Of a stretch of 13,605 nt of DNA, positions 3-13,605 are shown one piece after another. This DNA is from a bacterium. GTDB taxonomy: Bacteria > UBP15 > UBA6099 > JAJRTR01. The notes beneath the pieces were generated by a model. The model saw nothing but the letters and a program-made list of their open reading frames with translations, was not told where the DNA came from and did no database searches. A program made the translations under genes and the position numbers. How positions within the stretch are numbered: the first letter of the stretch is position 1; every line of letters starts with the position of its first letter. The stretch lies in NCBI GenBank assembly GCA_024278215.1, contig JAJRTR010000030.1:1-13605 (forward strand). The letters run 5' to 3'.

Positions 3-2117
3 GTGGAAGGCAACTACGACATTCTCAACTACGATGGATTCTTATGTATAGACAACGACGGCAACGCCTGCGTCGGAAGTACTGATGGAACAATATACGC
101 TGATGATTTTGTCTGTAATACCGGCAATTGTATAGATACTTCTGACCTGAACCTGTCAACTCTCACACGAGGCACGGGACTTACCGGCAGCAATTATAAT
201 GGATCTGCCGCCACAACCTGGGCCGTCAATTACGGAAGTACAGCCGGGACAGCAGTTGAAGGCAACAAAACACTGGGTATCACAGCCAATACCGGCATAT
301 CCGTGTCGGGCAGCCCGGTCACTCTGGGTACCGGCGGAAATATTACGGTTGGAGTCGATACCACCTGGTCAGATGGTCGCTATGTGAATGTTACAGGTGA
401 TACAATGACAGGCGCGCTGACGATGAGCGGAGCAGCCGCAGATATTACTTTCGACAATGCAGGCGGAAATATTACAACCGCCGGAGGTACAATCTCCGAC
501 AGCGCCGGCGATGTCACAGTAAATGATGCACTTGGAGTAACAGGGGCCATCACAGGATCGAGCACAGTACAGGGAACACGGTTAATCTCAACCGTAGCAA
601 TCGGCACTGCGCCATTGACCGTCACATCCACCACGAAGGTAACCAACCTGAACGCCGACCTGCTCGACGGCCTCACATCTTCACAATTCCTGCGAAGCGA
701 CACATCCGATGACTGGAACGGACTTATACAGGGACGGCAGGACGATAACCTGGCGGTCTCCGACGGCTATGTCTGTGTGGACAACAACGGCGCCACGGCT
801 GCCTCCTGCGCCGGAACTACGGACGGCACTGTTTACGCCGACGATTTTGTCTGCAACAGCGGGAATTGTATCAGTAGCGACGCGATACCCGACATTTACG
901 TTTTCAACACCAGCGACACAATGAGCGGCAGCCTGACTGTTCAGGATAATATATATGTGAACAATCCCGACTATGGGCAGGGGCTTGTGGGGAACTACGA
1001 CTCGACGAAAATCCGGCTTGTCTACTCGATGGGCGCGGCCTACATGCTCTCCGCCGACGGAACGGCGCCCGGCAATCTCTACGGTATCGCTTATACCCAC
1101 ACCAACTATACCGGCGGCGGAGCGAAGGCGGGGCTGGGACACCAGATGCTGATCATGGCCAACGGAGTCACCACAACAGCTATAGGAACCGGTATCTGGA
1201 CAAATGGAAATATCACAACATCTACGGATGACAACCTCTACATAACCGACGGCTCGATCTGCGCAGACGATGCGGGCGGCACATGCGTGGGAAGCACGGA
1301 CGGCACAGTTTACGCCGACGACTTTATATGCAACGGCGGCAACTGCCTTGGTGCCGCGGATATAGCCGACGGACTTGGAGCCAGCGAAATCGCCGATATC
1401 TATGTTTTCAATACCAGCGACACCATGTCCGGCACACTCGCCGTGGCCGGCACACTGTCCGCGAACAATGGTATCAGTGTCGATGGAAACACAGTCATCG
1501 ACAACGGCGCGGGCTGGCATCGCTCTTATGGGGCCACCGGCTGGTACAACGGCACATACGGCGGCGGCTGGTACATGACGGACACTACTTATGTCAAGGT
1601 ATACGGTGGCAAGAAAATCTGGGCGCCGAGCTATTACGACTCGGACAACACGGCCCGCTATGTGGACCCGAGCGGCAACACGTATCTGAACCGGCTCGTG
1701 AGCGTTGACGATACGACAAAGGTAACCAACCTCAACGCCGACATGACGGACGGCTACCACGTCAGCACTACAGCAAACGCCGCCAATACGATCCCGGTTC
1801 GCAACGCGAGCGGTTATTTGTACCTAGGCTGGATCAACACAACAAGCGGCAGCGCCGGCACGACCACGCCGACCAGGATTTACGGATCGTATGACAGCTT
1901 TATAAGATATTACACACCCGCCAACTTTAAAACAGCTATGGGCACCACCATGTCTTGTCATATAAGAAGCTTCACAGTCGGGTCGACTTCCAACTGCAAC
2001 GCCGGCACGGCGGTTGTCGGCACGATGGACACAGGTTACAACGTGGCGAATCCCGGGAACTTCACCGGCGGCCCTACAAGCGGCTACATGATCTGTTGTC
2101 CGACATTGCCATGGTAA
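3..2117 (+). CDS. Tail-fibre-like repetitive surface protein, 3' part (5' end outside window)
   Basis: This is 704 residues of a low-complexity, Gly/Thr/Asn/Asp-rich protein typical of beta-structured phage tail fibres and bacterial adhesin stalks. The first in-frame GTG lies at base 3 and no stop precedes it, so the real start is probably to the left. Visible modules are three four-cysteine cassettes (core C..D..G..C.GSTDGT.YADDF.C..GNC), each of the last two followed by DIYVFNTSDTMSG. There are two copies of TKVTNLNAD, a motif common in tail-fibre repeats, and a GDTMTGALTM segment. The last ~55 residues form a distinct Cys-containing tip with an ICC near the end. No catalytic motif is seen. 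It precedes the hxsD-like gene by 72 bases in the same direction, so it may be co-transcribed and may be a partner or surface scaffold of the maturation system; that link is inferred only from position. A prophage or ordinary adhesin gene is the alternative. Confidence 0.75.
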   Translation: MEGNYDILNYDGFLCIDNDGNACVGSTDGTIYADDFVCNTGNCIDTSDLNLSTLTRGTGLTGSNYNGSAATTWAVNYGSTAGTAVEGNKTLGITANTGISVSGSPVTLGTGGNITVGVDTTWSDGRYVNVTGDTMTGALTMSGAAADITFDNAGGNITTAGGTISDSAGDVTVNDALGVTGAITGSSTVQGTRLISTVAIGTAPLTVTSTTKVTNLNADLLDGLTSSQFLRSDTSDDWNGLIQGRQDDNLAVSDGYVCVDNNGATAASCAGTTDGTVYADDFVCNSGNCISSDAIPDIYVFNTSDTMSGSLTVQDNIYVNNPDYGQGLVGNYDSTKIRLVYSMGAAYMLSADGTAPGNLYGIAYTHTNYTGGGAKAGLGHQMLIMANGVTTTAIGTGIWTNGNITTSTDDNLYITDGSICADDAGGTCVGSTDGTVYADDFICNGGNCLGAADIADGLGASEIADIYVFNTSDTMSGTLAVAGTLSANNGISVDGNTVIDNGAGWHRSYGATGWYNGTYGGGWYMTDTTYVKVYGGKKIWAPSYYDSDNTARYVDPSGNTYLNRLVSVDDTTKVTNLNADMTDGYHVSTTANAANTIPVRNASGYLYLGWINTTSGSAGTTTPTRIYGSYDSFIRYYTPANFKTAMGTTMSCHIRSFTVGSTSNCNAGTAVVGTMDTGYNVANPGNFTGGPTSGYMICCPTLPW
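30..131 (+). repeat. Four-cysteine cassette, copy 1
   Basis: The encoded segment has cysteines at residues 15, 23, 38 and 43 of the visible protein in the pattern C-x7-C-x14-C-x4-C. The ACVGSTDGTIYADDF core is shared with copies 2 and 3. This copy lacks the DIYVFNTSDTMSG tail. The spacing suggests two small disulfides or a metal site in a secreted stalk. Confidence 0.7.
741..941 (+). repeat. Four-cysteine cassette, copy 2, with DIYVFNTSDTMSG tail
   Basis: The segment begins DDNLAVSDGYVC, continues SCAGTTDGTVYADDF and DDFVCNSGNC, and runs into IPDIYVFNTSDTMSGSLTV. It keeps four cysteines but has a slightly longer first gap than copy 1. Confidence 0.7.
1227..1445 (+). repeat. Four-cysteine cassette, copy 3, with DIYVFNTSDTMSG tail
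   Basis: The segment begins DDNLYITDGSIC, continues TCVGSTDGTVYADDF and DDFICNGGNC, and after a short insertion (IADGLGASE) ends in DIYVFNTSDTMSGTLAV. It is the closest relative of copy 2, which suggests duplication of a ~200-base unit inside the gene. Confidence 0.7.
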
Positions 2118-2189
2118 TCATCTGTTTATCTTCTGTATAGTTTTGCAATTGCTCAGTGTCGGACATTCACAGGAAAGGCGGCAGAGAAG

Positions 2190-2543
2190 GTGAACTCTTT
2201 CGCGGAAAAGTACGACAAAGTAATTCCTCTCGATACGGATATATACCCGTTGGAGAGCATACAGCTTGCAGCCTGCGGTTTTCTGGACGAAGCTTTCTTT
2301 CATCTATTCCCTGAAAGCGGCAGCGGCAGACTCGGCAAGGTCAACGCGGCAATCAAGGCGAGAGCCGGCGGCGACATGAATACAGATGAAATATGCGGAA
2401 GGTTCGTTAACGAACTTAACAGGCAGAGCTTGAGGATAGCGCTCGACAGGATAAACATAAAAGTGAGAACGCAGATAGTAGGCCGCGCGCTCGCCTCGGC
2501 GATTGCCCCCGCGGAGAAGGAATCCCGGGAAGACGCGATATAA
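2190..2543 (+). CDS. hxsD: HxsD-like protein of a His-Xaa-Ser system
   Basis: This 117-residue soluble protein resembles HxsD, the small conserved partner encoded beside the HxsB/HxsC radical SAM maturases, which I presume helps present the HxsA-type substrate. An N-terminal strand/helix motif V-I-P-L-D-x-x-I-Y (residues 11-19) is followed by the helix LESIQLAACGF. A C-terminal helix holds FVNELN (72-77) and LR (81-82), close to the family signature LLNDYxLRE as I remember it, then a basic amphipathic tail around residues 86-106. The start is GTG, with AGGAAAGG at 2171-2178 about 11 bases upstream. No ATG fits before the conserved LD..IY motif. It is followed after 46 bases by a second, shorter HxsD-like gene and then directly by the hxsB-type gene, which supports the assignment. 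The identification rests on motif memory plus context; sequence similarity is only moderate. Confidence 0.7.
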   Translation: MNSFAEKYDKVIPLDTDIYPLESIQLAACGFLDEAFFHLFPESGSGRLGKVNAAIKARAGGDMNTDEICGRFVNELNRQSLRIALDRINIKVRTQIVGRALASAIAPAEKESREDAI

Positions 2544-2589
2544 AGTCCGCGGATGGACGGGGACGCCGGAAAAATCCACAGGAGTTGTT

Positions 2590-2802
2590 ATGACGACAGC
2601 AAGAACAGTAACACTGGACGCAAGAATATATAAACCCAGCGCTGTAAAAGCGACGATCAAAGATTATTCGGATGTATCGGACATAAAGATGGAAAAAGAC
2701 GGTCGCACAATCATAGTAACCTTCGAGAGCTGGCCCGAGGAGTACGAAGACACTATCGAATTCGAGTTCTGCAACTACACCCTATGGAAGATGAGGAACT
2801 AG
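2590..2802 (+). CDS. Shortened HxsD-like protein (70 aa)
   Basis: The start is the ATG at 2590, with a good AGGAG at 2580-2584 five bases upstream. The in-frame GTG 29 codons earlier would overlap the upstream gene and has no such site. The protein opens TVTLDARIYKPSAVK, matching the V-x-L-D-x-x-I-Y motif of the preceding HxsD-like protein. It has a central Lys/Asp-rich beta region and ends FEFCNYTLWKMRN, which lines up with FVNELN...LR of HxsD (shared F-x-N-x-x-L). It therefore looks like an HxsD fold missing the last ~30-residue helix. Its stop codon touches the ATG of the hxsB-type gene, implying translational coupling. It may be a dedicated peptide-recognition subunit for that radical SAM enzyme, in the manner of PqqD/RRE proteins. 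The function is inferred; the relationship to HxsD is by eye. Confidence 0.6.
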   Translation: MTTARTVTLDARIYKPSAVKATIKDYSDVSDIKMEKDGRTIIVTFESWPEEYEDTIEFEFCNYTLWKMRN

Positions 2803-4257
2803 ATGTACACCGAAGTTATCGACAGAGCGCCCGCGATAAGGAAAGACCTGGGTTTTTTCCGTTTCAGGCGATACAGCGCGAATGAATATATACTGACAAA
2901 CGACCTTGGCGATTATATCTCCATGCGTAAGGAAGATTTTCAAAACCTGGTGCATGGCGGAGAGATGCCGGACGGAGCGATAGTAGAGAAACTGACTTCG
3001 ATGGGTATACTGCGCCGTGAAGAGTTCGCCGTCCCGGAGAATATCCACAGGTACAGAAACAAGAACAGGTTTCTTTTTCAGGGCACGCTTCTGCATATAA
3101 TAGTCGGCACACTCCGGTGCAACCTGAAATGTTCATACTGCCAGGCGAGCGCGCAAAAAGGTGCGGAAAAGCAATTTGACATGGATGAAGAAACCGCGAA
3201 GAGAGTAGTGGACGCCATCTTCCAGAGCCCCGGACCGAAAGTGGACATCGAGTTCCAGGGCGGGGAGCCGCTGGTCAACTGGCCGATTGTCGAATACATA
3301 ATCAACTACGCGAACAGGAAATCGCTCGTCGAGGATAAGGACGTTTTCTTTTCGCTGGTCTCGAATCTCGTTTCCATCTCGGACGACCAGCTCCAGTTTC
3401 TCGTGGACAACGAAGTGGGAATATCAACATCTATAGACGGCCCCGAGAAGTTGCACGACCTGCACAGGGGAAGCGGCAGTTTCAAAAAAACGACGGCCAA
3501 TCTGAAAAAATGTGTGGAAACATATAAGGAAAAGTATGTGTTGAGGCTTCCCGGCGCGTTGTTGACGGCAACTACGGATTCACTTGCTTACCCGGTGGAA
3601 ATCGTAGACCAGTACGTGGAACTCGGTCTGGAATCCGTGCACCTGCGGAAAGTCAGCCCCTTCGGAATGGCCTCGAAGAGCATGGCGAAATTCGCTTATA
3701 CGGACAGCGAGTTCCTCGAGTTCTATGAGAAAGCTTTTGACAGAATAATAGAGCTGAACAAAGAAGGAACGCGCTTCACTGAAAGGGCTGCTTATCTGTT
3801 CCTTTTAAAGATGATGACGGACTATCCCGTGAACCACATGGACTGCCGCAACCCGTGCGGCGCGGGGATAGGACAGGTCGCCTACAACTATAACGGCAAT
3901 GTTTATACCTGCGACGAAGGCCGCATGATGAGTATGATGGGGCGTGAGGATTTCAAACTGGGCAACGTCATGGAGAATACATTTGAAGAGATGATGGACA
4001 ACGATGTCGTCAGAGCCATGTGCGCCTCTTCATGCCTGGAGAGTCTGCCCGCCTGTAATCTTTGTGCATACAAACCCTATTGCGGAGTATGTCCCCTGTA
4101 CAATTTCGCCGTGGAAGGCTCCCTTTTCGGCATGGAACACTTCAACGAAAGATGCAGGATCAACAAAGGTATTCTGGACATTATTATGAAGAAAGCCAGG
4201 GACCCTGAAGTATTAGATATTTATACGAGTTGGATAAACGACATTCTGATAACCTGA
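2803..4257 (+). CDS. hxsB: Radical SAM maturase, HxsB-type with SPASM-like C-terminus
   Basis: This is a 484-residue radical SAM enzyme of the HxsB group, expected to modify His/Ser residues of a repetitive substrate; the chemistry is not established. The N-terminal ~95 residues form a DUF-like region (RYSANEYILTNDLGDYI) typical of peptide maturases. The SAM cluster motif is LRCNLKCSYCQAS with C106, C110 and C113, followed by FQGGEPLVNW (GGEP 153-156). A cysteine-rich C-terminus (C348, C352, C370, C407, C411, C418, C421, C427, C430, C451) would bind auxiliary Fe-S clusters. The stretch CNLCAYKPYCGVCPLYNF is strongly reminiscent of HxsB. Its ATG directly follows the stop of the short HxsD-like gene, with GAGGA at 2793-2797. 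The His-Gly-Ser precursor lies 66 bases downstream, which is the main support for the substrate. Confidence 0.85.
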   Translation: MYTEVIDRAPAIRKDLGFFRFRRYSANEYILTNDLGDYISMRKEDFQNLVHGGEMPDGAIVEKLTSMGILRREEFAVPENIHRYRNKNRFLFQGTLLHIIVGTLRCNLKCSYCQASAQKGAEKQFDMDEETAKRVVDAIFQSPGPKVDIEFQGGEPLVNWPIVEYIINYANRKSLVEDKDVFFSLVSNLVSISDDQLQFLVDNEVGISTSIDGPEKLHDLHRGSGSFKKTTANLKKCVETYKEKYVLRLPGALLTATTDSLAYPVEIVDQYVELGLESVHLRKVSPFGMASKSMAKFAYTDSEFLEFYEKAFDRIIELNKEGTRFTERAAYLFLLKMMTDYPVNHMDCRNPCGAGIGQVAYNYNGNVYTCDEGRMMSMMGREDFKLGNVMENTFEEMMDNDVVRAMCASSCLESLPACNLCAYKPYCGVCPLYNFAVEGSLFGMEHFNERCRINKGILDIIMKKARDPEVLDIYTSWINDILIT

Positions 4258-4308
4258 CACAGGTTGATTATTAAGGAAAAGCATGTTTTAATTATTATAG
4301 GATGGAAC

Positions 4309-4316
4309 AGGGGTGA
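4309..4316 (+). promoter_or_regulatory. Ribosome binding site of the His-Gly-Ser precursor
   Basis: AGGGGTGA lies seven bases before the ATG at 4324 and closely matches the anti-Shine-Dalgarno sequence. It decides the start against the in-frame TTG at 4264, which has no comparable site. It is the strongest ribosome binding site in the array, fitting a substrate made in excess over its enzymes. Confidence 0.6.
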
Positions 4317-4323
4317 CCCAATA

Positions 4324-4629
4324 ATGAGAAAAAAAGAAGAAAAGAACAAACTGCCGAAGCCGGATAAGAGCATCAAGACATTCCTTTCATCCGAGGACGG
4401 GAAAGTTACGAAAAAGGGCCTGGTCGCCGGGGCGATCGTAATGGCGATAGTCGGCATGGCTACTGAAGCCTACGGGCATACCAGCCACAGCAACAGCCGG
4501 TTTCAGAACCTGCCTTCCCTGGACTATGGCCGCCACATATCACACAGTTCACATGGCTCGCACGGCTCGCACGGTTCTCATGGCTCGCACGGTTCACACG
4601 GCTCGCACGGTTCGCACGGTTCATGGTAG
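4324..4629 (+). CDS. hxsA: His-Gly-Ser repeat precursor peptide (short HxsA-like)
   Basis: The 101-residue product has three parts. A charged leader (1-31, MRKKEEKNK...SSEDGKVTKK) precedes a single hydrophobic segment (GLVAGAIVMAIVGMATEA, 32-49). A tail from residue 50 carries His-x-Ser triplets: HTS, then a linker ending in HIS and HSS, then eight HGS units (77-100), and a terminal Trp. HxsA proteins are defined by such His-Xaa-Ser repeats and are the presumed substrates of HxsB/HxsC. This one is short and almost purely HGS. The hydrophobic segment could act as a signal peptide cut after AYG or TEA, or as a class III (pilin-type) segment cut at KKG|L by the A24 peptidase encoded downstream. 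An intrinsic terminator follows. A metal-binding His-rich protein unrelated to Hxs is possible but unlikely beside an HxsB-type gene. Confidence 0.8.
   Translation: MRKKEEKNKLPKPDKSIKTFLSSEDGKVTKKGLVAGAIVMAIVGMATEAYGHTSHSNSRFQNLPSLDYGRHISHSSHGSHGSHGSHGSHGSHGSHGSHGSW
4552..4623 (+). repeat. Eight tandem His-Gly-Ser codon units
   Basis: Eight 9-base units encode HGS. Codons vary between units (CAT/CAC, GGC/GGT, TCG/TCA/TCT), so the array is not a fresh slippage product. The protein repeat has been kept while third positions drifted, which points to selection on the peptide. Confidence 0.9.
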
Positions 4630-4678
4630 GACCGTGAAGGTTCAAAAAGGCTTTACGGCATTTGTTTAAGAACATAAA

Positions 4679-4740
4679 ACGGCGCTTGTCCTGTAACTAC
4701 CGGACGCAACCGGATTTACAGGACAGGTTCCGTTTTTTTT
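4679..4740 (+). terminator. Rho-independent terminator after the precursor gene
   Basis: A long hairpin pairs ACGG (4679-4682) with CCGT (4730-4733) and TGTCCTGTAA (4687-4696) with TTACAGGACA (4716-4725). A small CCGG/CCGG inner stem is possible, and the structure ends in a run of eight T. It lies about 50 bases after the precursor stop. It should end, or strongly attenuate, transcripts before the three downstream radical SAM genes. Confidence 0.88.
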
Positions 4741-4751
4741 CATACAATAAC

Positions 4752-4780
4752 TTAACTTGTGCGTTTTTATAAAAGATAGT
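4752..4780 (+). promoter_or_regulatory. Possible sigma70-type promoter for the downstream radical SAM genes
   Basis: TTAACT (4752-4757), 17 bases, then GATAGT (4775-4780) match four of six bases at each box. They lie in an AT-rich stretch just after the terminator and about 120 bases before the next gene. The position is sensible because the terminator would otherwise cut off the downstream genes. The match is weak. Confidence 0.25.
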
Positions 4781-4785
4781 AGTAG

Positions 4786-4843
4786 AATTTATGGGGACAC
4801 GATCCGGAACTAAAGGTCAAACTTCAGTCATGTCCCCAAAATT
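4786..4843 (+). repeat. GGGGACA inverted repeat
   Basis: AATTTATGGGGACA (4786-4799) is mirrored by TGTCCCCAAAATT (4831-4843) around a ~31-base centre. Boxes of this kind occur as short dispersed palindromes in many environmental genomes, often linked to IS200/REP-associated transposases. It may instead be an operator or 5' leader structure of the gene at 4901. Confidence 0.5.
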
Positions 4844-4900
4844 CTTGCAATATATCTGAATTCGTACAAGCAGTAATAATACAAGAGACTCATAAGTCTG

Positions 4901-5872
4901 GTGACGCTTTTGGACCGCATTGACGTAAAAGTCGGTTATTTATGCAACAACTCGTGCCTGTTCTGTGTCCAGGCCCACAACAAGGGCAAGGGCAGGGACA
5001 AGAGCACGGAAAAAATAATAAGTATACTTGAGGAATCGCGGAAGAAGTACGAAGCGGTGGTTCTCACGGGCGGAGAAGTCTCCATCCGAGACGACGTCTT
5101 CGATATAGTCGCCGCCGCAAGGGACCTCGGTTACAAAAAAATCCATATCCAGTCGAACGGCAGAAGATTCTATTACAGGGATTTCTGCGTGAAAATGATA
5201 GAATCCGGAGCGACCGAATTCGGACTTGCTCTGCACGGCCATATCCCCGAACTGCACGACTATCTCACCCGCGCGCCGGGAAGCTTTCTCGCCACGCTGC
5301 GCGGCATCCGCAACCTGGTCGAACTCGGCCAGTCCGTCATGACCAACACGGTCATCACGAAATCCAATTACCGCCACCTTCCCGCTATTGCGCAGGTTCT
5401 TGTAAGCGCCGGCGTTTTCCAGTATCAGTTCGCTTTCGTACATGTAGCGGGCAACGCGAAAACCTACGCCCCGGCGGTTGTACCCAGAAAAACGCTTGTG
5501 GCTCCTTACGCGAAGCGTGGACTCGATGTCGGGCGGGCCAGAGGCGTGGCTGTGATGACGGAGGCGATACCCTACTGCTTTATGCGGGGCTACGAGCAGC
5601 ACATCGCCGAAAAGATAATTCCTGAAACAAAAATATTCGACGCGGAATTCGTGATAGAAAGCTACACTGAAGTACGCAGAAACCAGGGGAAGGCCAAGGG
5701 CCCGCCGTGCGAGGAATGCGACATGCGCAAGATTTGCGAGGGGCCGTGGCGTGAATACCCGGAGATGTTCGGCTGGGATGAATTCAAACCGGTAAAATGG
5801 CACTCCGTCACCGGCGGCGCCGACATCGCGTTCAGGGAGAAAAAAACCGCCCCGCCCCGGAAGGGCGCATAG
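4901..5872 (+). CDS. Radical SAM protein, HxsC-like (1 of 3)
   Basis: This 323-residue radical SAM enzyme has the cluster motif YLCNNSCLFCVQ (C15, C19, C22), LTGGEVS (GGE 57-59) in place of the usual GGEP, and IHIQSNGRRF. Its C-terminal cysteines are IPYC (C226) and CEECDMRKIC (C270, C273, C279), ahead of a WREYPEMFGWDEF ending. A single PLC-type cysteine plus a C-x2-C-x5-C set followed by an aromatic/Gly stretch is the layout I associate with HxsC maturases, though the CSQPP signature of classical HxsC is absent. The start is GTG with no clear ribosome binding site; a TTG three codons later is an alternative. The conserved SAM motif begins by residue 8, so little more can be trimmed. The gene is separated from the precursor by a terminator and followed 7 bases later by a paralogue. 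It presumably modifies the same peptide or a relay intermediate; the exact reaction is unknown. Confidence 0.75.
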   Translation: MTLLDRIDVKVGYLCNNSCLFCVQAHNKGKGRDKSTEKIISILEESRKKYEAVVLTGGEVSIRDDVFDIVAAARDLGYKKIHIQSNGRRFYYRDFCVKMIESGATEFGLALHGHIPELHDYLTRAPGSFLATLRGIRNLVELGQSVMTNTVITKSNYRHLPAIAQVLVSAGVFQYQFAFVHVAGNAKTYAPAVVPRKTLVAPYAKRGLDVGRARGVAVMTEAIPYCFMRGYEQHIAEKIIPETKIFDAEFVIESYTEVRRNQGKAKGPPCEECDMRKICEGPWREYPEMFGWDEFKPVKWHSVTGGADIAFREKKTAPPRKGA

Positions 5873-5879
5873 ATAACCG

Positions 5880-6848
5880 ATGGCCGAACAGGGATACATA
5901 CAACTCACACGCGACTGCAACCAGAACTGCCGCTTCTGCTCGAACCCCGCCAACAGTAAGCGCATCGACATCGACCGCGCCGTCGGGCTGATCAACAGTT
6001 TCATCGAGCGCGGCTACAGTGGGATCATCTTCACAGGCGGCGAGCCCACACTCTGCCCGTTCCTGCCGGAACTCATAGCCCACGCGTCGCGAAAAGGTAT
6101 CCCGAACCGCATTATAACCAACGGCCAGAAAATCTGTGACCGCTCATATTTCGAAACCCTCTACGAAGCCGGCCTGCGGAATGTGAACATTTCCATATAT
6201 TCCGTCAGGGACGATGTCCAGGCGTTTCTTTCCGGCAACCCGGATTCGCTGAAAAACATCGCCGGTGCCCTGAAAACGCTGGATGTCTTTAAGGGTGATG
6301 TACAGACCGTGGTCAACACGGTGATCAACAAATATAACAGCGATCACCTGTCGGAAAACGTGCGCTGGGTGCTCGATAACGCGCCCTTCGTGCCCCATTT
6401 CGTGTGGAACAACCTTGACCCGGGAAACAGTAAGTGCAAAGAAAATCCCGACACAGTCCCGAAGCTGAACGACTTCCAGCTCGAATTGTACAAAGCCGTG
6501 GATCACGTTCTCAAATCCGGGCGCACATGCCGGATCGAGCGGGTGCCCCTCTGTTACATGACGGACTTCGAGCATCTCTCCACGGAGACAAGGAAGATTG
6601 TAAAAAAGGAAAAAACCACGACCTACTTCCTGGACGAAAAGGAACTCTTTTCGCAGGACTCGTATCAGTACGACAAAGCGGATTGCTGCTCCGCCTGCTT
6701 CCTCGAGCGGATATGCGCGGGGCTGTTCGAGATGGATGTATATTATTCTTCCGACGAACTGTACGCCTGTTTTATCGACAGCGAAAAGATAACAGAGAAA
6801 ATCCTCCACGGAACAACCGTGAAGGCCCCCGGCGGGATTATGACATAG
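5880..6848 (+). CDS. Radical SAM protein, HxsC-like (2 of 3)
   Basis: This 322-residue paralogue has RDCNQNCRFCSNP (C13, C17, C20), FTGGEPTLCP (GGEP 53-56) and IITNGQ. It also has VPLC (C225) and a C-terminal CCSACFLERICAG set (C269, C270, C273, C279). These fall at nearly the same positions as in the first copy, so the architecture is shared although the middle region differs widely. CSNP after the SAM motif is the nearest of the three to the CSQPP of classical HxsC. The ATG lies 7 bases after the upstream stop and has only a weak ribosome site, which suggests translational coupling. Unlike copies 1 and 3 it lacks the FG[WF]DEF tail and ends in a different Tyr-rich sequence (DVYYSSDELYACF), hinting at another substrate or role. 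Confidence 0.75.
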   Translation: MAEQGYIQLTRDCNQNCRFCSNPANSKRIDIDRAVGLINSFIERGYSGIIFTGGEPTLCPFLPELIAHASRKGIPNRIITNGQKICDRSYFETLYEAGLRNVNISIYSVRDDVQAFLSGNPDSLKNIAGALKTLDVFKGDVQTVVNTVINKYNSDHLSENVRWVLDNAPFVPHFVWNNLDPGNSKCKENPDTVPKLNDFQLELYKAVDHVLKSGRTCRIERVPLCYMTDFEHLSTETRKIVKKEKTTTYFLDEKELFSQDSYQYDKADCCSACFLERICAGLFEMDVYYSSDELYACFIDSEKITEKILHGTTVKAPGGIMT

Positions 6849-6855
6849 AAACTGC

Positions 6856-7893
6856 GTGGAACCAATGAAAAGAAAAACCGGCGACGGCTACTACGATGTA
6901 CCGCCGCACGCACAGGACGATAAAAAGAAACACATCGAGATCAGCCTCGGCATGGCCTGCAACAACAAGTGCATATTCTGCCTGAATGTCGGCCCGCGCA
7001 AGATCGTACCGTTCGAGCAGGTACGTAAAGAAGCGGCGGAATACGCCGGGGCCGGCTATAATTCCATCGGCCTCATCGGCGGCGACCCGACCGTATATCC
7101 CCGCATTTCGGAACTCGGTCGACAAATCAAAGCCATGGGCTACAAACATATTCACATGATCAGCAACGGACGCCGCTTCAGCGACATCGAATTCCTGGAT
7201 GAATTGATCGAGGCCGGTTTCAACAGGTTCTCAGTCTCCATCCACAGCCACCTGCCCGAAGTCGAGGACAAACTCACACAACGGCCCGGAAGCCACGCCC
7301 AGAAAATTCAGGGACTCAAAAATCTGGTCAGGCGATCAAGAGAGGGCGCGTTCCGCGAACGCGTCCCGATAAATATTGTTATGCACAAGTTGAATATCGA
7401 TAATCTGGCCGCGAGTGTCAGGTTCTTTTCCGACATCGGCATTACGGATATGAGGCTTCTCATCATACGACCCGAGGGCTACGCTCTGCAACATTTCGAC
7501 CTTCTCGTGCCGCGCCTCACACGGGTGAGGGAGCGGCTGCCGGCCGTGATCCGCGCGGCACACCTGCGAAAACTCAAGGTCATGATCGACCCGCCGCCCT
7601 ACTGCCTGTTCTACGACATACCCGGTTTCAACCGGATGGTAGCGCGAGACTATCTCGATTATGTGATCTCCGACGCGCCGGACAGGGCGGTGCGCGAAAC
7701 TTTTTCATGGAACGAATACAGGTTGAAGCAAAAAGTGAAAGACCCCGGCTGCAACAACTGTTGCTTCAACGGAATATGCGAGGGCGTCTGGACCGGCTAT
7801 GTAAAGGTATTCGGGTTCGATGAATTCGTACCCGTCACGGACGAAATGCTGTCGGACATTCCCGCGCCGGGCGCCACAGGAAAAACGGAGTAA
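6856..7893 (+). CDS. Radical SAM protein, HxsC-like (3 of 3)
   Basis: This 345-residue enzyme starts at GTG; an ATG three codons in, with GGA four bases upstream, is an equally likely start. Motifs are MACNNKCIFCLNV (C35, C39, C42), GLIGGDPTVYP (GGDP in place of GGEP, 75-78) and MISNGRRF. The tail has PPPYC (C250) and GCNNCCFNGIC (C299, C302, C303, C308), then EGVWTGYVKVFGFDEFVPV. The ending and the SNGRRF motif show it is closest to copy 1 (SNGRRF, FGWDEF), suggesting these two share a duplication and copy 2 is older or of other origin. It has an N-terminal extension of about 20 residues rich in Lys and Asp relative to the others. Seven bases separate it from copy 2, and its stop lies one base before the A24 peptidase ATG. 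Confidence 0.75.
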   Translation: MEPMKRKTGDGYYDVPPHAQDDKKKHIEISLGMACNNKCIFCLNVGPRKIVPFEQVRKEAAEYAGAGYNSIGLIGGDPTVYPRISELGRQIKAMGYKHIHMISNGRRFSDIEFLDELIEAGFNRFSVSIHSHLPEVEDKLTQRPGSHAQKIQGLKNLVRRSREGAFRERVPINIVMHKLNIDNLAASVRFFSDIGITDMRLLIIRPEGYALQHFDLLVPRLTRVRERLPAVIRAAHLRKLKVMIDPPPYCLFYDIPGFNRMVARDYLDYVISDAPDRAVRETFSWNEYRLKQKVKDPGCNNCCFNGICEGVWTGYVKVFGFDEFVPVTDEMLSDIPAPGATGKTE

Positions 7894-7894
7894 A

Positions 7895-9046
7895 ATGGAG
7901 ATAGATTTCAGTGACAGCGTCATCAAGTTGTTCTCCAGTGTTTCGCTGGTCGTTTTTCTGTTTCTCAGCTACCATGTCATAAAAGAGGACCTGGCATCCC
8001 AGAAAATCCCGAACAAACTCATTCTCAAATTCATGAAAATCGGCTTGTTCATGTGTGTGACTCTTTTGGTCTACGGTCTACTGAAAGACAATCAGTTCGC
8101 TGTCAATTATGCAAAGATACTGTTGCTTAATGCCGCCGTTGCCCTGGTTTGTGGATACTTATTGTGGTACTTCGACCTGTTCAGTCCGGGCGACTCGAAA
8201 TATTTCGCACTGGCGGCGCTTCTTGTTCCACTCGAGTCATATACATACCAGTACGTGCCCGGTTTCCCCGCATTGCTTATTCTGATAAACGCCTATGTCA
8301 TAGCATTTCTCCTGATGTTCGCCTACACGCTTTATGTTTTGGCCGGGCGAGCTGTAACCGCCGTCGCCGCCGGTGATCTCTCGAAAGAGAATATCAGGCG
8401 AGTCGCCGACAGCGTAATGGAGAAACTCAAAGCGCCGGCATTCTGGGTCAGTCTCGCCGGTATGCTCCTCTACATGGCTTCCATACTCCTGATAATGAGA
8501 GACTCGATCAACGTGATCCAGGGCTTCTTCAATTTCTCGCCGGGCCATTTTACCCTGATCACTGTTCTGATACTATACTTCGCCGGCAGCCGGCTTCAGG
8601 GCCTTATGAATGATAATAAAATAGTGGCCCGGGCCGCATATTTCGTTTTCGCGGGCGTAATATCCTTTCAGTATTTTATCCTCCGGCAAAATGTCTTTCA
8701 CATGATCGCGGAAACTGTCGCCGCCTCCTTTTTCATGATCGTCTTCATCCCGATCGCGAAATATGTTATCGATTTATATTACGGAACAATGGAGAACAAT
8801 AAGGTTGAATATATCCGAATGGGTATCGTTCTGACGGAAGAGACAGTAGAGAAATTCCAGACGGACTGGGGTGTCGAGGTGCCTGCCCTTGTTCCCCTAT
8901 CGGACAGTCAGTCGCAATCAGTCAAAGACAACATCCCCAACAACGAAAAAATATGTACGGTCAAGCACATAACATTCGGCCCGTTTATCTTTATCGGCGC
9001 GATGTTTACTTTCTTGTTACGGCACACGATCATTCACTATCTATAG
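7895..9046 (+). CDS. A24-family (prepilin peptidase-like) membrane aspartic protease
   Basis: This 383-residue polytopic membrane protein starts at the ATG at 7895, one base after the previous stop; the upstream in-frame ATG would overlap that gene. The two A24 signatures are present. The first is KEDLASQKIPNKL, with D32 five residues before Ile-Pro, as in D-x5-[IV]-P of prepilin and preflagellin peptidases. The second is FSPGDSKYF, with D100 in the G-x-G-D-x-K-like motif. Hydrophobic helices flank both. It lacks the zinc-binding N-methylase domain of PilD and instead has a second block of helices (~175-305), a soluble loop and a final TM helix near the C-terminus. Family members cleave leader peptides just before a hydrophobic segment, on the cytoplasmic side. 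The likely substrate here is the precursor's KKG|LVAGAIVM site, inferred from shared operon position. A role in an unseen pilus is the alternative. Confidence 0.7.
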   Translation: MEIDFSDSVIKLFSSVSLVVFLFLSYHVIKEDLASQKIPNKLILKFMKIGLFMCVTLLVYGLLKDNQFAVNYAKILLLNAAVALVCGYLLWYFDLFSPGDSKYFALAALLVPLESYTYQYVPGFPALLILINAYVIAFLLMFAYTLYVLAGRAVTAVAAGDLSKENIRRVADSVMEKLKAPAFWVSLAGMLLYMASILLIMRDSINVIQGFFNFSPGHFTLITVLILYFAGSRLQGLMNDNKIVARAAYFVFAGVISFQYFILRQNVFHMIAETVAASFFMIVFIPIAKYVIDLYYGTMENNKVEYIRMGIVLTEETVEKFQTDWGVEVPALVPLSDSQSQSVKDNIPNNEKICTVKHITFGPFIFIGAMFTFLLRHTIIHYL

Positions 9047-9143
9047 CAATTCGCGCCATCTTCGTAATTGCCCCGGCAGCTTCACGGCAAAACATATCAC
9101 GAACGCGAACGCATGTTCCGGCCTTACGAGAGCGGCTTTTCGC

Positions 9144-10676
9144 TCAATCACTGTTTTTTCCTGTGCCGGTATCGGCCGGGATAAGGCTGATCAAGGCGTA
9201 ATAATAATTGAAAATATTCTCGGAAAACAACTCCCGTGGCGCAAACTTGCTGAAAACCTTCGAGCATATCTCCTTCCGGCCGGTCGCGCATTCCATCTCG
9301 AATACAACAACTTTACACCTGCGATGTTTCTCCATGAACGCGCCATCCAGCAACTGTGTTATCTCGTAATTCGGGTTGTCGGTATACGTCATTCCTATGG
9401 AAGGATTAACAGAAAAAACGGAACACTTATCAACCACTTTCGGAAGACGATCCGCAATGAAATCGTCCTGCGCCTCCGCGAAATCCCTCAGGACGACAAG
9501 ACTCACATTAAACGACGAAAAGAGAAAGACTGCCAGACAGAGCGTGACCAGGCCGTTTCTTACAGCAATGCTTTTTGTCACGTCAAGAAGCCAATCGGCG
9601 GTTATTCCGAAAAAGAGAATTAACGGAATAGTCGCCGGCAGCATAAACCTCGGGAAATCCCCCAGGGGGAGATGAATGTCGAGAAGACTTATCGCGAGTA
9701 TTGAAACAAAAACGAAAAAGAAAAGTGGGCGGGAAACACCGCAGCGACGACCGAGAAACACAGGCGCGACGAATAACGGGATAGAGACAAAAAACGGGAT
9801 GTATTGATTCGAAAACAGGAAAATAATATTAGTCTTAACGACACCGGGATAACCACCCGGTGGAAGCGCGAATGCACTTCTGTACACAGGTGGAAGAACA
9901 AAAATCAGAGCAGCAATCAGTGCGGCTCCGGCCAGGGCCGCAAGTATCTTTTTGAGGTCGTGCGGACCGGCGGCAAGAAGAACAATCAGGATAAAGGCGG
10001 CTGTATACGCGTTGCGAGGCTCGAGCAGGATAGAAAATACTATTGCCGAAAAGAGACCCGCCCCCGATAGTGCGTCTTTATTCCTCAGGTACAGAAACAA
10101 AAATGTGAATGTGATGCACAGAAACAGCAAATCCGCGGTTTCCGTGGTAGCGTTTCCGGAAAGAATCACATTGAGCGGGAGCACGGAAGCCGCGAACGAC
10201 GCGAAAAGCGCAGTGCGCGCACTGCCCGCCGCCGCCATCGCCATGATGAAAACCACAGGGATGCACAAAACCCCCAGAACAGAATTCAGCGTGAACAGGA
10301 CATTCGGCGAATACCTGCCCGTCAGCCGCATCGCGGCGGCGCCCATGAATGGGAACCCGGTGGCGTAAACGGGAGGCTGCCTGTCTTCACATTTTTCAAA
10401 TGTTCCAGCCGTGCAAACCGAGAAATCGCCTTCCCCCGCGATCATCCGCGCAATATTGTTGATTTCATACTCGACATAAAACACCTTGAACCTGTGTGGA
10501 CTGTGGTCGAACCGAAACCATATCCCGAGAATAATTGTTGCCGCGAGAAGCAGGATGAAAACCGGCTTCAGCTTTTCTCCCACTCGCAGAGCGGCGGGTA
10601 CCCCGACAATAAAAAGCGCCACCGCCGCCGATAAACACAATACGTGCAGGATAAGCAGTAAGAAATTGCCGGTCAT
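9144..10676 (-). CDS. Predicted GT-C/GT39-type membrane glycosyltransferase
   Basis: This 510-residue protein has about ten or more predicted TM segments. The N-terminus (1-55) holds two helices. A first external loop contains FYVEYEINNIARMIAGEG (around 67-83), with acidic Glu residues where GT-C enzymes keep catalytic acids. QPPVYATGFPFMGAAAMRLTG (around 100-120) matches the PP-x-Y...G pattern of PMT/ArnT-like proteins, and SGNATTETADLL follows near 173-183. The C-terminal ~100 residues are soluble. GT39-like proteins move sugars from polyprenyl-phosphate donors at the outer face of the membrane. The start ATG has GGAG about 10 bases upstream. It is convergent with the maturation array, leaving a 97-base gap without a clear terminator. 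Whether it glycosylates products of the array is not shown; these genes are common in this sort of genome. Confidence 0.65.
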   Translation of the reverse strand: MTGNFLLLILHVLCLSAAVALFIVGVPAALRVGEKLKPVFILLLAATIILGIWFRFDHSPHRFKVFYVEYEINNIARMIAGEGDFSVCTAGTFEKCEDRQPPVYATGFPFMGAAAMRLTGRYSPNVLFTLNSVLGVLCIPVVFIMAMAAAGSARTALFASFAASVLPLNVILSGNATTETADLLFLCITFTFLFLYLRNKDALSGAGLFSAIVFSILLEPRNAYTAAFILIVLLAAGPHDLKKILAALAGAALIAALIFVLPPVYRSAFALPPGGYPGVVKTNIIFLFSNQYIPFFVSIPLFVAPVFLGRRCGVSRPLFFFVFVSILAISLLDIHLPLGDFPRFMLPATIPLILFFGITADWLLDVTKSIAVRNGLVTLCLAVFLFSSFNVSLVVLRDFAEAQDDFIADRLPKVVDKCSVFSVNPSIGMTYTDNPNYEITQLLDGAFMEKHRRCKVVVFEMECATGRKEICSKVFSKFAPRELFSENIFNYYYALISLIPADTGTGKNSD

Positions 10677-11061: not shown

Positions 11062-13272
11062 ATGGTAAGAGAAGCTTCCCCAGCAAAAAACATTCTGAAA
11101 AAATATGCCTGGATAATTATTATTTTACTTGCGATATTTCTTAGAACAGTCTACATGAATTATAACAATATCGGTCATTATATTATCCCGTCTATGATAA
11201 CGGCCCTGGATATCGCGGAGGGCAAAAGCTTTCCTCTCGAGGGTCCTGTTCTCGGCGAATTCAACGCGAAACACGGACCGGCTTCGTACTATCTTTTCGC
11301 GTTGCCTATTCTTTTTGATCACAACCCGCTTAATATCTTTTTCTTTATCGTGTTGCTTAATGTCATATCCGTATACGTGGTATACAGGATAGGAAAAGAT
11401 TTTTTTTCGGTGAATGCAGGCTTGATTGCGGCGCTTATCCATGCTGTGCAGCCCAATCTTGTAGTCTTCTCTCGCAATATTACAGACGACGCGCTTGTGC
11501 AAATCTTTGTCGCGCTGATTTATTACTGCTTTTTTTCTATTATATCGAACAATAAAACACGTCTTTCCTGGGTTGTCCTGCCGGTCGCTTTCGCGCTGGG
11601 AATGCAATTGCATTTCCAACTCGTGGTTACTCTCTTTTTCGTTGTCCTGCTGTTTCTGTTTTTCAAACCTGCCGTGCCTCAAAAGCAACTGGGGATCGGT
11701 ATTGCTATCGCCCTGCTGTGCCTCTCACCCCAGATATGGCACGATCTCACCATAAGCAACACACACTTTCTCTCTTTCTATTACGCAGGCTTGGACTTCC
11801 TGAAAAATAATGTAAGCATACCGGATAACCAGATGAACAGCAGGGGCAACATTTTCAGCAACTGCTTAATCGTCTTCGGCGTTCTGTTCTACTACTATCT
11901 CGCGGCGCTGGTTTTCGTGACCGCCGGAATGGTCAGGGAGAAAGTCGCGAGCGGCACGTGGTTCAACTTTGAAAATCAAAAGATACTGTCTCTGCTGATC
12001 TTTTCCATCCCCTCACTTCTGGTGTTTTCCAATTACGGCAGCCAGATTTTCAACCGGCATCATGCCGCCTTCACGCCTATGGCTATATTGATCGGGATCG
12101 CGCTGAGCGGCATGTTTTCCACCTCGCTCAAGGGTAAAAAAACATACGTGAGAATACCGGCGTTGTTCGCCAGGTCGGCGGTCATGTTGTTTTTCGCCGG
12201 TATTATTCTTTTATACATCGTCAAATCATACGGCATTGCATTAATTAATGTGAATCCTGCTCCCGGCAAATACTTTAATGTGTTCGGTCGATTCATGTGC
12301 ATGGATCAATACCGCAATGATTGCGAAGAAGTATTGGAGAGCGACAGTGTAGACTTCTGGCAGGACACATATTATTACCGGAGAAAGCAGTTTGAAATAT
12401 TTTTTAACGACTTTGGATTAGATCGTAAAACACTTCTTGCAAATGTGCATGGGATGCCGTATTTCAGAATGTTTGGCGACGATGGGTATCTTTTCCGCAC
12501 ATTGCCGCAGGGCAAGTCGACAGATGCGGCATCATTCCATTACCTGATAGCAGAGGCGGACACGCTAAAATCTTTTATCGACCGAATGAAAATCATAAAA
12601 ACAGTGCGTCTTTCCTCGCTTGTAGCGCTTAAATACAAGTCGTATATCGATTATTCGGGTTTAAAGTATATGGATATAAACGATGGACAAACAATAGTGT
12701 CCGGCCCCGGCGATATGCAATGGATCAATAGAGCAGCCCCCTTGATGCAGTTGTCCGATATATGTTGCGGTCATGCCTTTTTCGGTGTTTTTCAGCACTA
12801 TATATTGTGGCTGCATGAATCGTTGGAGTATCCGCACTGGAGCAGGTTCGAGCGTGGTGTGGACAGGTCGATAAACCTTGGGATAACCGATAGTTCACTT
12901 GATACTACCAACCATTACCACTGGATCAGGGCATGGAACCAGGGCGGCAAGATAGTTAAGGGATCAATAGGGGAACCGGATGATTTTTCGTCGATGCTGC
13001 TGGTCGTCGAGGTGCTTTTCAAGGATATACGGGAAACGCTTGTCGGGCCGGGCCGGGATGTCGAGATACACTTGTATTTCAACAATAAAGAGATACAGAC
13101 AGCGGAGGTGGGTTACAGCGGAAATATCTTCTTCGGAGAGAGTTACAGACATTATTACATTATCGACAAGAAGTATTTCGGCGACAGTAACGCCTTTACA
13201 TTTACAATAAACGATCCACATACGGAAGAAAGATACGCGATCGACGTATACGGCATTGCGCTGAAAGACTGA
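11062..13272 (+). CDS. GT39-like membrane protein with large soluble C-terminal domain
   Basis: This 736-residue protein has a membrane half, about 14 to 395, with some ten hydrophobic helices; a C-terminal soluble half of ~340 residues follows the last helix (373-390). The membrane half has the glycosyltransferase-family order: TM1 (16-31), an external loop, HGPASYYLFALPILF (71-85) and a run of helices with FSRNITDDALVQ (136-147). The catalytic acid normally found in the first loop is not obvious, so activity is uncertain. The soluble half contains YYRRKQFEIFFNDFG and a Trp/His-rich region (NHYHWIRAWNQGG) and a beta-rich end; I do not recognise its fold, but it may bind carbohydrate. The gene is visibly more AT-rich than the radical SAM genes and lies divergent from the other GT39-like gene. 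No close tie to the maturation array can be shown. Confidence 0.6.
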   Translation: MVREASPAKNILKKYAWIIIILLAIFLRTVYMNYNNIGHYIIPSMITALDIAEGKSFPLEGPVLGEFNAKHGPASYYLFALPILFDHNPLNIFFFIVLLNVISVYVVYRIGKDFFSVNAGLIAALIHAVQPNLVVFSRNITDDALVQIFVALIYYCFFSIISNNKTRLSWVVLPVAFALGMQLHFQLVVTLFFVVLLFLFFKPAVPQKQLGIGIAIALLCLSPQIWHDLTISNTHFLSFYYAGLDFLKNNVSIPDNQMNSRGNIFSNCLIVFGVLFYYYLAALVFVTAGMVREKVASGTWFNFENQKILSLLIFSIPSLLVFSNYGSQIFNRHHAAFTPMAILIGIALSGMFSTSLKGKKTYVRIPALFARSAVMLFFAGIILLYIVKSYGIALINVNPAPGKYFNVFGRFMCMDQYRNDCEEVLESDSVDFWQDTYYYRRKQFEIFFNDFGLDRKTLLANVHGMPYFRMFGDDGYLFRTLPQGKSTDAASFHYLIAEADTLKSFIDRMKIIKTVRLSSLVALKYKSYIDYSGLKYMDINDGQTIVSGPGDMQWINRAAPLMQLSDICCGHAFFGVFQHYILWLHESLEYPHWSRFERGVDRSINLGITDSSLDTTNHYHWIRAWNQGGKIVKGSIGEPDDFSSMLLVVEVLFKDIRETLVGPGRDVEIHLYFNNKEIQTAEVGYSGNIFFGESYRHYYIIDKKYFGDSNAFTFTINDPHTEERYAIDVYGIALKD

Positions 13273-13311: not shown

Positions 13312-13489
13312 GAGCCGATTGTAAAATTATGTTCGTGGCGAGGTCGAGCGAAATTGTTCGGAGCAAGGCGGAGGCGTAAAATCCTCGCAGGCGTACTTGT
13401 AGAGTACGTCGAGGACGATTTTACGCTGACAACGCAGCTATGGACAATAGCAGCCGACTGCAGCAGAATCAGAATTTTGCAATTGGCTC
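13312..13489. repeat. ~180-base imperfect palindrome of dispersed-repeat type
   Basis: Outer arms at 13312-13328 (GAGCCGATTGTAAAATT) and 13473-13489 pair over 17 positions, with both non-Watson-Crick pairs being G-U compatible. A core hairpin at 13374-13426 pairs GCGTAAAATC with GATTTTACGC, CTCG with CGAG and CGTACT with AGTACG around a 5-base loop. The core resembles intergenic repeats I have seen in deltaproteobacterial and related genomes. It starts 40 bases after the last gene, so it could also end that transcript. The remaining ~115 bases to the window edge show nothing convincing. Confidence 0.7.
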
Positions 13490-13605
13490 GGGTGCAATCA
13501 GCCGAATTTCAGGACTCCTGACCTGGGAGAAGGGTAGAAAAGAGGGCATGGCGAGAGAGGCACACAAAAAAGCGTATGAATAAAGGAAAAATGTCGAGTG
13601 GAGAG

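Follow-up and report, generated by a model that had tools for sequence, protein, structure and literature searches.

The closest described relatives of the locus treated here are the His-Xaa-Ser (Hxs) systems, which were discovered in silico and whose classical form, HxsA-B-C-D (TIGR03976-TIGR03979), occurs on plasmids, phage and mobile elements. The window, that is the whole stretch of DNA analysed, is one entire contig (C205, JAJRTR010000030.1; 13,605 bases) of a 4.55 Mb bacterial genome in 207 contigs, so that either of its ends may be truncated, and it carries on the + strand, in this order, genes for a fibre-like protein, HxsD, an HxsD-like protein, HxsB, a precursor peptide with His-Gly-Ser (HGS) triads, three radical SAM enzymes (rS1, rS2 and rS3) and an A24 peptidase. 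With classical Hxs loci it shares HxsB, an HxS precursor, a relative of HxsD, HxsC-like partners and the compact one-strand operon, but it adds a second HxsD-type gene, three HxsC-like enzymes below cut-off, a leader of SEEG type, the A24 peptidase and an exported-type protein ending in two cysteines (the CC-ended protein). The four classical loci that were compared, on plasmids of Aeromonas, Paraburkholderia and Nostoc and in a Leptospira phage, each have one HxsA, HxsB, HxsC and HxsD, and both an A24 homologue and a SEEG leader are absent from all four, which bears out the view of an earlier, sequence-only reading that the locus is distinct from the described system. We give even chances to the interpretation that this so far uncharacterised bacterial cluster is a ribosomal-peptide maturation locus of the HxsA3/HxsA4 branch of Hxs systems that works as proposed below. 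It is furthermore possible, if rather tentative, that this widespread branch has recruited a prepilin-type A24 protein as leader peptidase into a module with the CC-ended partner and radical SAM enzymes that vary from locus to locus, which would make surface peptides with tandem His-Ser crosslinks and would in some phyla be linked to type IV filament genes.

All genes named in the sequence-only reading are present on the + strand (Table 1), and the extent it gave, 2190-9046, does hold those genes but is too short, since the upstream gene also belongs to the locus. The curated NCBIfam cut-offs are passed by HxsB (370 bits for TIGR03978), by the precursor (55 bits for NF038313, HxsA4) and by the HxsD-like protein (41 bits for NF038315), and are missed by HxsD (50 bits for TIGR03976) and by all three HxsC-like enzymes; the HxsB and HxsD models, whose failure would have spoken against the earlier assignment, thus both match, HxsD below its cut-off. 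HxsD and the HxsD-like gene are separated by 46 nt, the latter and HxsB by 0 nt and HxsB and the precursor gene by 66 nt, and beyond the terminator region the spacing is 7 nt (rS1/rS2), 7 nt (rS2/rS3) and 1 nt (rS3/A24). The terminator 3' of the precursor gene would yield precursor in excess of enzyme.

Table 1. Coordinates of the features of the Hxs locus in the window
Feature	Position	Strand	Basis or remark
CC-ended fibre-like exported-type protein	3..2117	+	5' end cut by contig; last ~60 residues are the C...C...GxMxCC module
HxsD, 117 aa, GTG start	2190..2543	+	TIGR03976 33 bits, E 5.7e-8
HxsD-like, 70 aa	2590..2802	+	NF038315 56.3 bits
HxsB radical SAM/SPASM maturase, 484 aa	2803..4257	+	TIGR03978 499.5 bits
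HxsA4-type precursor, 101 aa	4324..4629	+	NF038313 68.8 bits
Predicted A24 cleavage site in precursor, between G26 and K27 (SEDG^K)	4399..4404	+	Suggested by the conserved E-E/D-G position
Eight HGS repeat units, 9-nt period	4552..4623	+	Within precursor gene
Intrinsic terminator hairpin between precursor and downstream radical SAM genes	4675..4737	+	-35.7 kcal/mol, z -8.59, followed by T run
Radical SAM enzyme rS1, HxsC-like	4901..5872	+	NF038332 161 bits; TIGR03977 107 bits
Radical SAM enzyme rS2, HxsC-like	5880..6848	+	TIGR03977 69 bits; NF038332 58 bits
Radical SAM enzyme rS3, HxsC-like	6856..7893	+	NF038332 149 bits; TIGR03977 81 bits
A24-type membrane aspartyl peptidase, 383 aa	7895..9046	+	PF01478 22.6 bits, E 1.5e-4

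The gene set recurs in other genomes. A scan of species-representative genomes returned 80 HxsB-related loci from Omnitrophota, Patescibacteria, Elusimicrobia, Clostridia, Myxococcota, Schekmanbacteria, archaea and unclassified bacteria, and at 75 of them, from about ten phyla, HxsB was recovered as a strong gene match. Two HxsD-type genes are found at 29 of these 75 loci, and at least three further radical SAM genes lie within 9 kb at 26 of the 51 loci that have at least 7 kb of downstream sequence, to which this count was limited. Judged by its genes the window is a typical member of a branch that departs from the classical loci. The earlier description of the locus as expanded is weakened, in that such numbers of additional radical SAM genes and of HxsD-type genes are the norm in the branch. 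Names given by the NCBI curators already cover HxsA4, HxsC4 and HxsD-like. Loci in Clostridia (such as Faecalibacterium prausnitzii, L097) and Omnitrophota (L045, L047) share with the window HxsD, HxsD-like, HxsB, a precursor with the same leader, HxsC-like enzymes and A24, and differ from it in having one or two HxsC-like genes, another gene order and extra proteins of ~300 aa by the precursor. A second Hxs locus is present in the window's own genome (L009, G000:C37:13000-31000, genes at 693-10301 on the - strand), with three larger HxS precursors, HxsD, HxsD-like, HxsB, relatives of rS1 and rS2, a 325-aa DUF483-like protein and a 417-aa radical SAM protein; in this locus and in three relatives of the same order EEA replaces EEG in the leader and there is no A24 gene in the locus.

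The precursor consists of a leader with an FLSSEDG motif, a hydrophobic segment and an HGS core that ends in W, with 8 HGS and 11 HxS triads in all, and its repeat codons differ synonymously between units, as expected of a repeat selected at the protein level. Across phyla the leader follows the consensus P-x-I-K-K-x-I-x-x-F-L-x-S-E-E-G-[KNR]-I-x-[KR], after which comes the hydrophobic stretch; the aligned set was collected by way of this very motif, and in a separate count not conditioned on it, which took in the 70 Hxs loci where an HxS peptide could be identified, 61 have the motif, among them all 22 of the 22 that also bear A24. The leader falls in the HxsA3 domain family, and NF038309 matches 27 of 30 leaders. 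In the whole genome there are only four leaders of this type, and no further precursors bearing it were found near the genome's double radical SAM genes. Cleavage after EEG/EDG is a candidate site, suggested by the conservation of this position.

The start of the A24 gene is best placed at the ATG at 7895, 1 nt past the preceding stop, which corrects a start at 7820. The score of its product with PF01478 is just under the gathering score of 26.5, and this score is exceeded by the genome's paralogue at L026 (36.5 bits) and by several homologues from Hxs loci. A D, N, GD, K pattern is invariant across 12 homologues, including the catalytic Asp positions D57 and G124-D125 (numbered on the 408-aa open reading frame), and this pattern matches the catalytic layout of prepilin peptidases. 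An A24 homologue lies no more than 9 kb from HxsB at 27 of the 75 loci, often adjoining hxsC or hxsB, and ~0.6 such loci would be expected by chance from the density of non-Hxs A24 genes (18 genes in about 44 Mb). Furthermore, when all A24 genes and pilus-type ATPases were searched for in twenty A24-bearing genomes, and N-methyl prepilins in five of them, the genomes of F. prausnitzii and two other Clostridia (L097, L104 and L095) were found to have a single A24 gene, located at the Hxs locus, while N-methyl prepilins were not found there and no ATPase of pilus or type II secretion system kind scored higher than about 28 bits; two further genomes (L084 and L098) have a single A24 and one ATPase of ~365 aa, and prepilins were not found in them. 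In genomes with a sole A24 and no prepilins the HxS precursor is the only obvious substrate of the peptidase, and together with the 27 loci this supports A24 being a dedicated leader peptidase for the HxS precursor, as the sequence-only reading had inferred. In the literature searched, which did not include the original description of Hxs, no A24 or prepilin peptidase was found in a radical SAM peptide system, and the A24 proteins tested have no NCBIfam model. In phyla beyond these the situation is less uniform, and in two Patescibacteria (L043, 2997-8797; L044, 2324-8480) the Hxs genes lie directly 3' of genes resembling a type IV pilus operon, which judged by sequence encode FTLIELL prepilins and PilB/PilT/PilC-like and PilD-like proteins.

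Several observations nonetheless weigh against cleavage of the leader by A24. The EEG leader is kept at 39 loci without a nearby A24 gene, and the motif may thus be for recognition by the enzymes and not for cleavage; likewise, although Gly is found at the cleavage position in 22 of 22 A24 loci it is also found in most loci that lack A24, and an association of A24 with this Gly was given up because the correlation is weak. The hydrophobic segment of the precursors often closes with an AxA-like site, so that an ordinary signal peptidase could suffice. The second A24 paralogue of the genome, at L026, adjoins HxsC-like double radical SAM genes and no HxS gene was found in the 17 kb read around it, which tells against full linkage of A24 to Hxs genes. 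The condition named by the earlier reading as a refutation, downstream radical SAM genes in relatives without Hxs genes, did not hold for rS2, which among 117 related genomes was found only together with HxsB. The leader resembles Tad/Flp prepilins served by A24 enzymes of TadV type in having an acidic-Gly motif followed by a hydrophobic segment, as the peptidase resembles TadV in both catalytic Asp residues, and there is a visible likeness, without support for homology, to Flp pilins encoded in this genome (FADEEG^QGLTEY). The precursor however lacks the Glu+5 of pilins, a Pfam comparison of 30 leaders with E values of up to 10 gave no prepilin or Flp family, and profile similarity (hhalign) between the leaders and the Flp/TadE pilins of this genome is weak, with a probability of 7%. 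A genuine Flp/Tad prepilin was accordingly rejected as an identity for the leader, on the absent Pfam match and the weak profile similarity.

The same observations would fit the alternative that A24 processes type IV or Tad pilins or some other exported protein, that signal peptidase I cuts HxsA at AxA and that EEG serves enzyme recognition only. It is in keeping with this that A-x-A closes the hydrophobic stretch before the core in many leaders, that classical HxsA has a signal-peptide-like N-terminus and no A24, and that genes for N-methyl prepilins, for Flp-like pilins and for several T2SSE ATPases are present elsewhere in the window's genome. This alternative is however made unlikely by the Clostridia whose Hxs A24 is the sole A24 in genomes where pilin machinery was not found, and by the frequency with which A24 stands beside HxsB.

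The three enzymes rS1-rS3 score far under the cut-offs of TIGR03977 (HxsC, 267.9 bits) and NF038332 (HxsC4, 500 bits), although rS1 and rS3 resemble HxsC4, and by these scores they are HxsC-like yet lie within no curated equivalog. HxsC-like enzymes have four C-terminal Cys residues in common, which fits a single auxiliary cluster. When 176 radical SAM domains taken from Hxs loci were placed in a tree, built by a quick method and with some long branches, rS1 grouped with Hxs-locus proteins in a clade of 31 rows, rS2 in a clade of 10 rows, every one from Hxs loci (Shimodaira-Hasegawa-like approximate likelihood ratio test, SH-aLRT, 100), whereas rS3 shares a clade of 3 (SH-aLRT 98) with Hxs-locus proteins of Schekmanbacteria and Buchananbacteria. 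Three distinct clades thus recur at Hxs loci in other phyla, and at one Buchananbacteria locus (L054) rS2 and rS3 both have relatives that fall in their clades, alongside further HxsC-like genes. At E < 1e-150 rS2 was found among the 117 related genomes only in the five of its own order that have HxsB, each time inside the Hxs locus, and it was not found in the two members of the order that lack HxsB, both of which are incomplete genomes. In the window's own genome there are also many orphan genes with two HxsC-like radical SAM domains in tandem, away from any Hxs gene, at L026 (5906-8479), L027 (6145-7641), L028 (563-2830), L029 (5101-7071), L030 (3681-5933) and L034 (5012-7429), and the one at L026 adjoins a glycosyltransferase-like gene in addition to the A24 paralogue.

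At ~18 of 61 HxsB loci the neighbour directly upstream of HxsD encodes a protein whose C-terminus has the form C-x(n)-C[PA]-x(n)-[GS]-x-[MLF]-x-C-C, a count that excludes one radical SAM gene among 19 scored automatically. These proteins are secreted-looking, the window gene 3-2117 is a member of the family, the four Cys residues are invariant across 18 aligned copies of the module, and the module has no match to a Pfam or NCBIfam model. When 12 genomes were searched for it, 8 had a match, and all 8 carry a copy at the Hxs locus; just two clear copies were seen outside such loci, one on contig C10 of the window's genome, adjoining a double radical SAM gene, and one in the L091 genome, adjoining prepilin-like genes. 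From this linkage and position, gene 3-2117 is by all appearance part of the Hxs locus as its upstream partner, and its family is previously undescribed. Such genes stand upstream of HxsD at L042, L045, L047, L054, L061, L069, L076, L079, L080, L087, L091, L113, L117 and L119; many family members begin with TTYYP[SA]PYGxY after a signal-like segment, and with few exceptions a genome holds a single copy, placed at its Hxs locus.

The tight linkage of the CC-ended protein to Hxs loci would also suit an arrangement of two joined pathways, in which HxsB, HxsD and HxsD-like act on the HGS peptide while rS1-rS3 modify another target, for example the CC-ended protein. A strong terminator does split the precursor group from rS1-rS3, HxsC-like radical SAM genes are abundant in the genome apart from Hxs genes, and the genome's second CC-ended protein adjoins a double HxsC-like gene (L028). 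Such a division is nevertheless distinctly unlikely, given that rS2 is located solely inside Hxs loci, that extra radical SAM genes are found directly 3' of HxsA or HxsB at many loci, and that the pairing of HxsB with HxsC is already present in classical systems.

HxsB conserves CxxxCxxC and a C-terminal set of Cys residues that is larger, of SPASM type, than that of the HxsC-like enzymes. HxsD and the HxsD-like protein are homologous by profile comparison (97% probability), and their AlphaFold2 models have mean confidence (pLDDT) values of 88.9 and 95.4, respectively; HxsD is modelled as beta-alpha-beta-beta-alpha-alpha, and the core common to both is beta-alpha-beta-beta-alpha. Weak fold matches are found for HxsD-like to Pcc1 (KEOPS), KH and ferredoxin-like domains and for HxsD to Rpb11-type RNA polymerase subunits, with Z of 6-8 in both cases. 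Pcc1 and Rpb11 are dimerising domains, which makes a heterodimer of HxsD and HxsD-like plausible, but it counts against this that all of the fold matches are below significance. No PqqD entry was among the Foldseek or VIA-align matches listed for the two proteins, of which the top ones were non-significant, and HxsD as a recognition-element (RRE) adaptor is not favoured, the models being without a winged-helix look.

A mechanism may be proposed that starts in the cytoplasm, where the 101-aa precursor would be recognised by its FLxSE(E/D)G leader and the HxsD and HxsD-like pair would serve as a small alpha/beta heterodimeric adaptor. HxsB would then modify the HGS triads, most likely by joining a His ring carbon to the beta-carbon of the Ser two residues on in a three-residue cyclophane, and rS1-rS3 might add further changes or act on other segments. 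A24 would cut the leader at the membrane after SEDG, leaving a new N-terminus that bears the hydrophobic segment for export, and the exported repeat peptide would act at the cell surface alongside the upstream CC-ended fibre-like protein.

That the product is a His-to-Ser three-residue cyclophane is our best guess, drawn by analogy with the triceptide systems (XncB, OscB, MscB, HaaB, YhhB), in which SPASM radical SAM enzymes likewise act on repeated three-residue motifs and motifs initiated by His are known (PMC11002830). The radical SAM/SPASM enzymes HaaB, ScaB and YhhB join C2 of His to C-beta of Ala or Arg at i,i+2, and MscB joins Phe to C-beta of Ser at i,i+2 (PMC11002830), the spacing that His and Ser have in HxS triads. 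In line with this precedent HxsB matches the model of the cyclophane-forming GrrM/OscB at E 3.8e-24, although it is far below the cut-offs for GrrM/OscB, YhhB and AmcB, so that cyclophane chemistry is a matter of analogy and not of membership. It weighs against the proposed mechanism as a whole that neither a product nor a function of any Hxs system is reported in the literature searched; PMC9062424 cites HxsB and HxsC just as previously annotated. The prospect that the enzymes carry out some other radical SAM chemistry, at Ser, His or Gly, such as oxidation, epimerisation or formation of ether links, giving for example a metal-binding repeat peptide, falls only a little short of even. Among the best-scoring relatives of HxsB there are cyclophane formers but also thioether-forming enzymes (PapB, SCIFF) and sulfatase maturases that form formylglycine, and with chemistries so mixed the family to which HxsB belongs does not reveal its reaction. 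Repeats rich in His are furthermore suggestive of metal binding. The cyclophane is on the other hand favoured by the i,i+2 spacing of aromatic residue and beta-carbon donor, which fits the triceptide rule (PMC11002830), and thioether links are ruled out by a core without Cys.

Downstream of the locus the window encodes two large membrane proteins, at 9144-10676 (-) and 11062-13272 (+), of which the latter matches PMT_2 (mannosyltransferase-like) and the former looks similar. These GT39-like (glycosyltransferase family 39) genes were rejected as Hxs-linked, no homologues being found near other HxsB loci. At 13312-13490 there is a sharply bounded dispersed repeat of ~178 bp with 17-bp terminal inverted repeats (GAGCCAATTGCAAAATT...AATTTTGCAATTGGCTC), which has at least 40 copies in the genome at 92-96% identity, several of them at contig ends. 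Its predicted fold is a single long hairpin (-83 kcal/mol, z -9.4), and Rfam gave no match; it looks like a miniature inverted-repeat transposable element (MITE). Further afield, HxsB-like sequences are seen in 414 plasmid records, 316 of them from Klebsiella, with most of the records covering less than 80% of the query, and a sequence of 38.7% identity is present in an unannotated phage-labelled record from human faeces (H16, MT837156.1).

Two recurrent components of these loci, A24 and the CC-ended protein, were found in no curated Hxs model. As a recurrent Hxs component A24 offers a testable cleavage site, and F. prausnitzii, a common bacterium of the human gut, provides a cultured host in which A24 has no other obvious substrate. 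The CC-ended protein encoded upstream could hint at the biological role. If HxS triads do become His-Ser cyclophanes, at least eight of them would follow in a row on one precursor.

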